A stretch of 64,000 nucleotides of DNA, taken from positions 62,001 to 126,000 of the forward strand of contig NZ_MOEN01000001.1 of assembly GCF_001968985.1 (NCBI RefSeq), written 5' to 3'. This DNA is from Desulfurobacterium indicum (lineage in GTDB: Bacteria > Aquificota > Aquificia > Desulfurobacteriales > Desulfurobacteriaceae). A program made the position numbers and the translations under genes. How positions within the stretch are numbered: the stretch's first letter is position 1; each line of letters starts with the position of its first letter. A model generated the notes under the pieces. The model searched no databases. It was given only the letters and a program-made list of their open reading frames with translations, and had not been told where the DNA came from. Shown in pieces: positions 22,044 to 25,596 of this stretch.

Positions 22044-22072
22044 AAGCCGTAGAGGCTTTGCCTCTACGGCTT
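22044..22072 (-). terminator. Strong hairpin between the convergent cytochrome and Hfq-like genes
   Basis: A perfect 13-bp stem (22044-22056 with 22060-22072) with a TTT loop. On the minus strand it is followed by TTTAAAATT and overlaps the last codons of the Hfq-like gene; it may also stop transcripts from the cytochrome side. Confidence 0.75.
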
Positions 22073-22564
22073 GTATATTATTGTTGTGATTGCGTGTTTG
22101 TAAACGATCATTTTTCCCATGAATGAGTTGATTCTGAGAACATACCTATCAAATCCTTTGAGTTTCCCTTCGACTTTTGAGCCATTTCTAAAAAATATGA
22201 TAATTCTTTTATTTATGATGTTTCTGAGTGTTCTGCTCTGAACACCGCCAAGGGTTGATGAAGCGATAAGTTTATAACCTTCTTTAAGTTTTTTGCTGAT
22301 TTCTTTTTCCTGTTCTTCTGTAAGCACGGCAGGAATGGTAGCAAAGGAAGCAGGTCTGATTATTATTTCTTCACCGTTTATTTCATAGTTTATATCACCT
22401 GACGCTTTTAGGCTGTTTAACAGGGGAATAACGACTTCCTGCCTAACGTCCAGTAACTCCATAAATTCTGAAACGGAGCCTCTAAATTCACCTTTCTCTT
22501 CAAGTAATTCTATTAGTTCAAGTTGTAATTCTTCCAGTGTTTTGTGTCTTCTCATCCCGTTCAT
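22064..22564 (-). CDS. Winged-helix/Hfq fusion protein B
   Basis: 166 residues. The C-terminal 60 residues are an Hfq Sm domain: a Gln (109) three residues before a leucine-rich helix, IIIFFRNGSKVEGKLKGFDR for Sm1, and IVYKHAITTI (154-163) as the Sm2 signature with the RNA-contacting Lys-His pair. Residues 8-70 form a helical domain ending in a beta hairpin (LINYEINGEEIIIRP-like), as in winged helices, though weaker than in its neighbour. The start overlaps the stop of the upstream paralogue (ATGA). Hfq binds U- and A-rich RNA as a hexamer; what the extra domain does is unknown. Confidence 0.82.
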   Translation of the reverse strand: MNGMRRHKTLEELQLELIELLEEKGEFRGSVSEFMELLDVRQEVVIPLLNSLKASGDINYEINGEEIIIRPASFATIPAVLTEEQEKEISKKLKEGYKLIASSTLGGVQSRTLRNIINKRIIIFFRNGSKVEGKLKGFDRYVLRINSFMGKMIVYKHAITTIIYKP

Positions 22565-23052
22565 CCATAAATTATCGTTGCTATTGCGTGTTTGTAAACT
22601 AAGGATCTTCCTTTTGGAGCAGTCATTGACAGTGTGAAGTTATCAAAATCTAAAAGTTTTCCTTCAAGTCTGGTGCCACTTACCAAAAATACAGTTATAT
22701 CTTTTCCTAAAAGAGATGAAAGAACTTCATCCTGAAGAGATATTTTTCTTTTTTTCTTCTCTTGTTTAATCTCTTCTTCCTTTTTGGGTTCAGTTTCTTC
22801 AGTTGTTTTTTTCTGAACTGTTATTTCTTCACTTTCTTTATCTTTGAGTTTCAGGGTTAATCCCTTTCCTCTTTTAGATTCGGCCGTTAAGAAGCCTTCT
22901 TCTTCCAGCTCGTTTATTGCTTTTTTTACAAGATAGCTACTTGTTTTTGTCAGATTTGCGAGCTCTTCAAATGTTCCTGTATATTCGCCGAATTCTTTTA
23001 AATACTGCCGAATCCAGTTTTTTACCATTTCATGTTTGGCAACGGCGGACAT
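22561..23052 (-). CDS. Winged-helix/Hfq fusion protein A
   Basis: 163 residues in three parts. Residues 10-70 form a clear winged helix (TGTFEELANLTKTSSYLVKK, then INELEEEGFLTAES, then a wing). Residues 70-104 are a Lys/Glu-rich linker. Residues 105-163 are a full Hfq domain: ISLQDEVLSSLL with the conserved Gln107, ITVFLVSGTRLEGKLLDFDN (Sm1) and LVYKHAIATI (151-160, Sm2). Ordinary Hfq is only 70-100 residues without such a domain. AGGAGG lies 5 bases before the ATG. Together with the overlapping paralogue it could form hetero-hexamers; this is inference. Confidence 0.88.
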   Translation of the reverse strand: MSAVAKHEMVKNWIRQYLKEFGEYTGTFEELANLTKTSSYLVKKAINELEEEGFLTAESKRGKGLTLKLKDKESEEITVQKKTTEETEPKKEEEIKQEKKKRKISLQDEVLSSLLGKDITVFLVSGTRLEGKLLDFDNFTLSMTAPKGRSLVYKHAIATIIYG

Positions 23053-23188: not shown

Positions 23189-24541
23189 TTAATTAGAAAC
23201 TATCTTATCTAAAATTTTATCTTCTAATATTTTTGTGTCAAGGTTTCCTTTAACGAAATCTTCATCTTCCACAAGTTTTAAGTGGAAAGGTATTGTTGTT
23301 TTTAGATTTCCTTCTATAAAAAATTCTGATAGAGCTCTCTTTCCACGAATTATTGTCTCTTCTCTTGTTTCACCGTGAACGATTAGTTTGGCTATGAGAG
23401 AATCGTAGTAAGGTGGTATTGAATAGCCTTCATAAACATGTGTATCAATCCTTACGCCAAATCCTCCAGGCAGCAACAGTTTCTCTATTTTTCCTGGAGA
23501 TGGTCTGAAATTCCTCTTGTAATCTTCGGCATTAATCCTGAATTCAATTGCGTGACCGTTTAATTTAGGGTCTGCCATTTCAAGTTTTTCACCTTCAGCT
23601 GCTTTAATTTGAAGGGCTATGAGGTCTTTTCCCGTTACCATTTCAGATACAGGATGTTCTACCTGGATTCGTGTATTCATTTCTATAAAATAAAAATTTT
23701 TGTCTTTGTCAACTAAAAACTCGACTGTTCCAGCACCTTCATACTTTATTGCAAGTGCGAGTTTCCTTGCAGCTTCGTATAGTTTTTCCCTTAAAGTTTC
23801 GTCTACAAAAGGTGAGGGTGATTCTTCAAGAACTTTTTGGTGTCTTCTTTGAAGGGAACACTCCCTTTCACCAAAAATCGTAACATTTCCGTATTTATCG
23901 GCTATTAGCTGTATTTCTATGTGTCTTGGATTCAGAATTAATTTTTCTACGTAAACCTCTCCATTTCCGAAAGCTGCTTCAGCTTCTGTCATTGCGGTTC
24001 TTATTGTTTCTTCGGCTCCCTCTTCTGTCTCAACAACGCGCATTCCTCTGCCTCCGCCTCCGTGAGCAGCTTTTACAAGAACGGGAAATCCTATTTTTCT
24101 GGCAAATTCGAGAACTTTTGCCGGGTCTTTCATCGCTTCGCTGCCGGGAACTACGGGGATTCCTGCTTTTTGAGCTATCGCTCTTGCCTGTGCTTTGTCT
24201 CCCATAGCAACCATTGTTTCGGAAGAAGGTCCTATAAACTCTACACCACAGGCTCTGCAAACTTCTGCAAATCCGGGATTTTCGGATAGAAATCCGTATC
24301 CGGGATGTATTGCGTCAGCACCTGAAACTTCTGCTGCTGATATTATTGCAGGAATGTTAAGGTAACTTGCGGCAGGGCGTTCACTTCCTATGCAGATGGC
24401 TTCATCTGCCAGAAACACAGGAAGTGAATCTTTGTCTGCGGTTGAATAAACAGCTACCGTTTTTATGCCAAGCTCTTTGCAGGTTCTTATTATTCTAACG
24501 GCTATTTCGCCTCTATTTGCTATCAGAATTTTTTTAAACAT
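23189..24541 (-). CDS. accC: Biotin carboxylase subunit
   Basis: 450 residues. ATP-dependent carboxylation of the biotin on the carrier protein, first half-reaction of acetyl-CoA carboxylase. The ATP-grasp domains show KILIANRGEIAVRIIRT at the start, the glycine-rich loop HGGGGRGMRVV, FIEMNTRIQVEHPVSE (glutamate metal ligands and the catalytic Arg) and a C-terminal domain. The related subunit of pyruvate or 2-oxoglutarate carboxylase looks similar, but the adjacent short accB argues for acetyl-CoA carboxylase. Last gene of the ftsY-to-accC run. Confidence 0.93.
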   Translation of the reverse strand: MFKKILIANRGEIAVRIIRTCKELGIKTVAVYSTADKDSLPVFLADEAICIGSERPAASYLNIPAIISAAEVSGADAIHPGYGFLSENPGFAEVCRACGVEFIGPSSETMVAMGDKAQARAIAQKAGIPVVPGSEAMKDPAKVLEFARKIGFPVLVKAAHGGGGRGMRVVETEEGAEETIRTAMTEAEAAFGNGEVYVEKLILNPRHIEIQLIADKYGNVTIFGERECSLQRRHQKVLEESPSPFVDETLREKLYEAARKLALAIKYEGAGTVEFLVDKDKNFYFIEMNTRIQVEHPVSEMVTGKDLIALQIKAAEGEKLEMADPKLNGHAIEFRINAEDYKRNFRPSPGKIEKLLLPGGFGVRIDTHVYEGYSIPPYYDSLIAKLIVHGETREETIIRGKRALSEFFIEGNLKTTIPFHLKLVEDEDFVKGNLDTKILEDKILDKIVSN

Positions 24542-24554
24542 AGACTACTCCGGT

Positions 24555-25013
24555 TCACACTTTCTCTATGTAAAATAGTGGCTGATCAAATTCTACAGGT
24601 TGTCCGTTTTCAACGAGTATTTTTACGACTCTTCCTGAAACATCTGATTCTATTTCATTCATCACTTTAAGGGCTTCTATTATGCAGAGTGTCTGTCCTT
24701 TCTCTACGAAGTCTCCTTCTTTAACGAAAGGTTCGGCTCCCGGCGATGGTGCCCTGTAAAATGTTCCGACAATAGGTGAGCGAACAATATGTATGTTTTC
24801 CGGTATTTCTGTTGGTTCTGCAGATGGTTTTGTTATTTCCGAAGTTGCTTCTGGAGCGGTAGTTGTTTCAATAACTCTTTCAACCGTTAACGGTTGAGAA
24901 GCTTTCTGGCGGCAGTAACGTGCTTTTACCTTGAGACCTTCAAGCTCTATTTCAACTTCTTCTATGCTACTGTTTTCAAGGGATTTTAACAGGTTTTCGA
25001 TTTTTTCTATCAC
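24555..25013 (-). CDS. accB: Biotin carboxyl carrier protein of acetyl-CoA carboxylase
   Basis: 152 residues, with an N-terminal dimerisation helix, a Pro/Thr/Ala/Glu-rich linker (about 40-75) and the C-terminal biotinyl domain from [18 protein letters not shown]. The thumb segment [10 protein letters not shown] marks the acetyl-CoA carboxylase type. The biotinylated lysine is in [10 protein letters not shown]; the residue before it is Leu rather than the usual Met, a mild variant. It is 13 bases upstream of accC and follows efp; birA at 9.5 kb would modify it. Confidence 0.94.
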
Positions 25014-25026
25014 AATGGCCTCCGAA

Positions 25027-25596
25027 TTACTTGTTAACTCTTTCGAGATACTTTCCTGTTTCTGTTTCTACTTTTATGTATTCGCCTACGTTTATGAATG
25101 TGGGAACTTGAACAACAGCTCCCGTTTCAAGAGTTGCCGGTTTAAGAACGTTGTTTACTGTGTCGCCTTTGAATCCCGGTTCAGTTTCTACAACTTGAAG
25201 AACCACAGTTTTAGGAAGTTTAACAGATAGTGGTTCACCTTTATAGAACTGAACCTGAACGGTGTCATTTTCTTTTAAAAAGTTTGCCTTTTCACCTAAA
25301 TTCTCTGCCGGAACAGGAATCTGTTCGTAAGTTCTTGTATCCATAAAATAGTAGAACGTTCCGTCGTTATACAGATATTCCATCTCTCTCTCTTCAAAAT
25401 CTGCTACTTCAAGTTTTTCGCCAACCTTGTAGGTTTTTTCAACGACATTTCCAGTTCTTAAATTTTTAAGTTTTATTCTTGCAAAAGCTTGTCCTTTTCC
25501 TGGTTTAACATGCTGGTAGTCAACTATTTCGTATGGATCGCCGTTTATTTCTAACTTCATACCTTTTGATATCTGGTTTACATCTATAGATGCCAC
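25027..25596 (-). CDS. efp: Elongation factor P
   Basis: Relieves ribosome stalling at polyproline stretches. 189 residues in three beta-barrel domains; the loop [13 protein letters not shown] (about 29-41) carries the lysine that is modified in some bacteria. The KamA-family protein at 12.1 kb is too different from EpmB to assume it serves this lysine. AGGAGG precedes the start. An efp-accB-accC order is common in bacteria. Confidence 0.96.

Follow-up and report, generated by a model that had tools for sequence, protein, structure and literature searches.

What might a bacterial Hfq domain be doing at the end of a protein that begins with a winged helix, and why are two such proteins encoded one directly after the other? 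Bacterial Hfq is known as a stand-alone RNA chaperone whose links to transcription run via partners. We addressed this question for two genes, here called W1 and W2, in the window, by which we mean the whole 64,000-nucleotide stretch of Desulfurobacterium indicum DNA that was analysed (Table 1). Our leading interpretation, to which we give a probability of roughly 0.42, is that W1 and W2 form a two-subunit transcription regulator gated by nucleic acid, and not a general sRNA matchmaker.

Table 1. Features of the W1-W2 locus and its upstream genes (positions in the window)
Feature	Position	Strand	Description and basis
W2 gene	22064-22564	minus	166 aa; N-terminal winged helix, linker, C-terminal Hfq domain
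W1 gene	22561-23052	minus	163 aa; N-terminal winged helix, linker, C-terminal Hfq domain
ATGA overlap	22561..22564	minus	W1 stop/W2 start; read in sequence
Inverted repeat, 13 bp	22044..22072		terminator-like, between converging genes; overlaps W2 stop codon
W2 Hfq/Sm domain	22064..22246	minus	residues 107-166 + stop codon; PF17209 47.5 bits, LSM 27.7 bits
W2 interdomain segment	22247..22348	minus	residues 73-106; predicted partly helical; C-terminal end conserved
W2 winged-helix domain	22349..22564	minus	residues 1-72, acidic; AF2, Foldseek, charge
W1 Hfq/Sm domain	22561..22740	minus	residues 105-163 + stop codon; PF17209 53 bits, Foldseek Hfq, residue comparison
W1 charged linker	22741..22845	minus	residues 70-104; pLDDT <50, raised dN
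W1 winged-helix domain	22846..23052	minus	residues 1-69; AF2 model, sub-threshold Pfam matches, ortholog conservation
accC, biotin carboxylase	23189..24541	minus	Pfam; upstream neighbour of W1
accB, biotin carrier protein	24555..25013	minus	Pfam
efp, elongation factor P	25027..25596	minus	assigned by reading sequence

Two tandem fusions of a winged helix and an Hfq domain

A preliminary description of this DNA had reported tandem genes coupled by an ATGA overlap, and their coordinates, strand and overlap are all correct; among 20 genomes the W1-W2 junction ranges from -23 to +15 bp. Spurious reading frames or chance similarity are ruled out by the Pfam matches, by conservation in 21 genomes and by a low dN against a near-saturated dS. 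The Pfam search suggested in that description placed both proteins above the curated cut-off of the Hfq family (PF17209; 53 bits for W1 and 47.5 bits for W2, cut-off 27), and the best matches in a PDB profile search were Hfq chains (E 1e-10 for W1, 2e-8 for W2). These matches, together with conservation, uphold the claim that an Hfq domain is fused to an N-terminal domain in both proteins, which at 163 and 166 aa and with an ordered N-terminal domain lie outside the size of single-domain Hfq (∼70-100 aa). The AlphaFold2 (AF2) model of W1, built on 21 W1 orthologs, forms an Sm-like domain at residues 106-162; its nearest folds in the PDB are those of Hfq, with Hfq chains making up 49 of the best 50 Foldseek matches. 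The Sm part of W2 was poorly modelled (pLDDT 28-53), and its fold is therefore assigned from sequence: the Hfq match and an LSM match (27.7 bits) both exceed their curated cut-offs, and 20/20 W2 orthologs match Hfq.

The winged helix had been described as clear in the upstream protein, W1; this holds, and AF2 and Foldseek extend it to the N-terminus of W2, so that monomer structure prediction, as had been proposed, gave a winged helix in both proteins and an Sm fold in W1. Residues 3-69 of W1 follow the H-E-H-H-E-E order of a winged helix (pLDDT about 71-85), and residues 7-68 of W2 follow the same order (pLDDT mostly 78-88), an internal Met 4 being the start used in most W2 orthologs. Between 13 and 18 of the 21 W1 orthologs match the Pfam families GntR, Rrf2 and HTH_Crp_2 below threshold; for GntR (PF00392) W1 itself scores 18.3 bits against a cut-off of 27, with matches in 13 of the 21 members and a best ortholog E of 1.1e-5. 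W1 has a GntR-like recognition helix and a conserved wing, R-G-[KR]-G-L, which by ortholog comparison is invariant and basic. Foldseek matches to the W2 winged helix comprise HsmR, AspA, SmtB and MarR-type regulators as well as Z-RNA-bound Z-alpha. A weak match to the PafC helix-turn-helix model (PF19187) was seen in 11 of 20 W2 proteins (best E 0.0047), which is of interest given the analogy with PafBC discussed below. Residues 72-102 of W1 form a disordered linker in the model, and its length varies from 26 to 50 aa among orthologs.

Winged helices can bind RNA or protein as well as DNA, and the two domains differ in mean net charge (0.2 in W1, -7.4 in W2). DNA binding is thus a prediction here, since the W1 winged helix is nearly neutral and that of W2 acidic: the DNA-binding role proposed earlier appears plausible for W1, with its GntR-like helix and basic wing, and doubtful for the W2 winged helix.

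Distribution and origin of the pair

Based on a sample with one genome per species, W1 is present in 21 of 22 Desulfurobacteriaceae genomes; the exception, an assembly that is 62% complete, yielded no Hfq at all. W2 follows W1 in 20 of these, and in the 21st the contig stops 66 bases past W1. The fusion does not replace ordinary Hfq: the search for a separate hfq that had been recommended found a gene of 78 aa elsewhere in the same genome, between miaA and hflX (neighbours named by reading sequences). Mapping across Aquificota, also proposed earlier, confines the fusion to one order and rules out a phylum-wide trait, as other Aquificota matches, among those listed, cover just the Hfq part of the profile. 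The genomes of three other groups of the phylum (f3, f4, f5) mostly carry two separate short Hfq proteins each. In the f4 genomes inspected, the Hfq between miaA and hflX is ∼63 aa long and lacks both F39 and a basic residue at position 19. Outside the phylum, the W1 profile matched 27 of 255 genomes, each in the Hfq part alone, as did the small phylum holding the best non-Aquificota match, and the fusion appeared in none of about 260 non-Aquificota genomes sampled. None was found either in viral contigs and plasmids, or among long Hfq-bearing frames at seven loci, five of which had an Hfq-motif frame with no obvious winged helix by eye and two (L129, L130) no frame by the motif filter. The contig scan, made with one protein query, reaches close relatives only.

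In two genomes of the other family of the order (f2), a W1'-W2' tandem lies between rpe and a gene for a T4-type RNA ligase (PF09511), which W2' overlaps (L134:4797-6447; L088). The pair therefore predates the split of the two families, and its linkage, kept despite different neighbours, supports joint action. The winged helices are well conserved (W1 versus W1', E 3.5e-18; W2 versus W2', E 1.4e-6). The Sm domains have decayed, W1' being without the YKH motif and W2' without its His, and give weak LSM/Hfq matches. In the f2 genomes (G113, G114; L141, L142), no ordinary hfq was detected, either as a PF17209 match or beside hflX. The ligase itself occurs in 13 of 22 Desulfurobacteriaceae genomes, not beside W1/W2 in the loci seen; we rejected its linkage as a functional clue, as it is limited to f2 and the genus of the window has no such ligase.

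W1 and W2 match each other over their full length (profile E 8e-23). In a tree built from 77 Sm domains, which with 63 columns is weakly resolved in general, they fall together on one side of a branch with support 99/99, and a two-residue deletion after Sm helix 1 is common to both. Because their Sm domains group as one clade with this deletion in common, the simplest account of the sequences is a single fusion that was later duplicated to give W1 and W2. The tree neither establishes nor refutes kinship of this clade with the ordinary Hfq of Desulfurobacteriaceae (AU p 0.38). Between close pairs, dN is about 0.01-0.1 in the winged-helix and Sm domains and 0.08-0.44 in the linker, with dS near 1 or saturated. 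Both domains are therefore under strong purifying selection, and the linker less so.

A candidate nucleic-acid-gated regulator

In which respects are these Sm domains still those of Hfq? We compared 41 W1 and W2 sequences (numbering of E. coli Hfq). The proximal RNA pocket is intact in all of them: each of the 41 has Q8, K56 and H57, and all 41 carry F or Y at position 42. The distal residues aromatic 25, G29 and K/R31 are retained, with Q33 changed to E. The rim residues N13, R16, R17 and R19, present in the ordinary Hfq of Desulfurobacteriaceae, are lost in all W1 and W2 and replaced by S/T or R, a hydrophobic residue, G/N and a gap. Mean net charge of the Sm domain is +1.3 in W1 and strongly basic in W2 (+10.75), against +2.8 in the ordinary Hfq of the family. 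Both proteins also miss the equivalog cut-off for the ordinary RNA chaperone (TIGR02383; 55.3 and 45.4 bits versus 61.7). The full Hfq signature of the preliminary description thus stands as to family and falls short of canonical, as both domains lack the rim arginines and have two residues fewer in the stretch joining helix 1 to strand 1. In E. coli Hfq, these arginines drive sRNA-mRNA annealing. The proposed role as an sRNA chaperone is accordingly weakened by the loss of the annealing patch, although the U-rich (proximal) pocket remains. A lateral RNA site has been described for Aquifex Hfq (PMC5379935).

W1 and W2 could instead be a specialised RNA chaperone or a repressor of translation, with winged helices that bind RNA and extend a mixed Sm ring and with no DNA contact. 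RNA-binding winged helices exist, such as the La-type and ribosomal ones, and some W1 proteins show weak matches to ribosomal S19e; the intact pocket, the very basic W2 Sm domain, the Z-alpha match and the RNA ligase gene overlapping W2' in f2 would all fit as well. We nevertheless consider this reading rather unlikely, given that the rim annealing patch is lost, that the W1 winged helix is closer to transcription-factor families (GntR/Rrf2/Crp) than to RNA-binding ones, and that the window's genus has no such ligase, which is unlinked elsewhere.

The f2 genomes raise another alternative. As they lost YKH yet kept the pair, what is essential may be something other than RNA binding at the proximal site, and the Hfq domain could be a ring-forming scaffold, or bind a nucleotide or some other small ligand, in otherwise ordinary winged-helix transcription factors that make no use of RNA. 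A scaffold would not obviously need Q8, F/Y42, K56 and H57, which in Desulfurobacteriaceae were all kept while the rim changed, and we judge this reading distinctly improbable.

The accC gene lies directly upstream of W1 in 21/21 genomes from 7 genera, at a distance of 17-172 bp (136 bp here), and the order efp-accB-accC before W1 recurs in relatives (L064, L066). Within the reading that we hold as a whole at the probability given above, W1 and W2 would be expressed jointly, as the last genes of the efp-accB-accC run. The window's promoter scan gave matches not above those in shuffled sequences, its promoter and repeat scan identified no operator for W1/W2, and Rfam yielded no family at gathering threshold over positions 1-64000; PADLOC returned weak matches only (best E 0.0035). 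The stem of the inverted repeat behind W2 is by far the longest in the window's terminator scan, whose terminator count is not above that of shuffles, and a similar stem stands at the matching place in a genus-mate (L035). That W1/W2 is an autoregulator or a dedicated regulator of accB-accC (acetyl-CoA carboxylase) reading the nascent transcript would suit the constant accC neighbour, but is very unlikely, since the place after accC may be mere synteny, the f2 pair comes after rpe, and the scans turned up neither an operator nor a known RNA element.

We therefore return to the two-subunit, nucleic-acid-gated regulator. A sensor-regulator fits better than a general chaperone because the U pocket is intact, the annealing rim is gone, the winged helix is tethered and the pairing is constant. 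We propose that the Sm domains would build a ring, either homomeric or mixed from W1 and W2, whose proximal pocket would hold a single-stranded nucleic acid, U-rich RNA or another, while the W1 winged helices, on flexible linkers attached on the proximal side at the start of Sm helix 1, might touch promoter DNA. The acidic winged helix of W2 may mediate protein-protein contacts or autoinhibition, lying over the very basic Sm face of its own protein. In this scheme, binding of RNA would alter DNA binding, and the pair would work like paired wHTH-WYL factors (PafBC, DriD), general sRNA matchmaking being left to the separate ordinary Hfq. The more specific version, a heteromeric W1/W2 Sm ring with pendant winged helices in which RNA in a true Hfq pocket gates transcription, we consider unlikely as it stands.

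Relation to known systems

This winged-helix-Hfq design is conserved and apparently undescribed: we found no description of such a protein in the open-access literature, nor any experimental work on a member of W1/W2 there, and one Desulfurobacterium transcriptome paper does not mention Hfq. If our reading is true, the duplicated fusion, with an ordinary Hfq kept and the annealing rim gone, would exemplify, in nature, the conversion of an Hfq pocket into a sensor, and the design may couple the sensing of RNA to gene control in the vent bacteria Desulfurobacteriaceae. Two questions could then be put directly to the test: whether bacterial Sm domains can gate transcription through bound RNA, in the way that WYL domains use ssDNA, and whether mixed Sm rings, familiar from archaea and eukaryotes, are also assembled in bacteria.

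With Hfq (PF17209/TIGR02383; e.g., that of Aquifex aeolicus, PMC5379935), W1 and W2 have in common the Sm fold, the proximal pocket and the distal residues aromatic 25, G29 and K/R31. They differ in their N-terminal winged helix and linker, the absence of a C-terminal tail, the Q33 to E change, the two-residue deletion, the lost rim (N13/R16/R17/R19), scores below the TIGR02383 cut-off, and their occurrence as a tandem pair of paralogs in addition to an ordinary hfq. The acidic winged helix of W2 beside a basic Sm face recalls, by analogy, how acidic C-terminal tails autoinhibit Hfq (PMC5606850). Tandem Hfq-Hfq proteins (NCBIfam PRK14091, 176 positions) likewise join Hfq to an extra domain, which in their case is a second Hfq; W1 and W2 match this model far below its cut-off (39 and 18 bits versus 270). 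The nearest fusion that we found is that of the zinc finger-Hfq-like proteins on Thermococcus and Methanocaldococcus plasmids (PMC3543421), which also have a nucleic-acid-binding N-terminus and a C-terminal Hfq-like domain. Those archaeal proteins are C2H2, encoded by single genes and plasmid-borne, whereas W1 and W2 have winged helices and form a chromosomal, order-wide gene pair.

The closest parallel in function may be with the wHTH-WYL factors (PafBC, DriD, SiwR), in which an N-terminal HTH likewise precedes an Sm-fold domain (assigned by sequence in W2). To our knowledge, Hfq-type rings do not occur among WYL factors. WYL domains have the Sm fold (PMC6789036), and PafBC is described as a heterodimer that responds to ssDNA via its Sm-fold domain (PMC11804915) and DriD as a wHTH-WYL regulator that is ssDNA-responsive in the same way (PMC12340889). 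Two-subunit pairing is a feature of PafB/PafC, comparable to the W1/W2 gene pair. In contrast, the Sm domains of W1 and W2 are true Hfq and not WYL, no WCX domain is present, and no WYL appears among the Pfam families listed at E<=10 for either protein, which rules out membership. W1 and W2 thus belong to the Hfq superfamily yet fail the features of ordinary Hfq, and they may work like WYL factors without being any.
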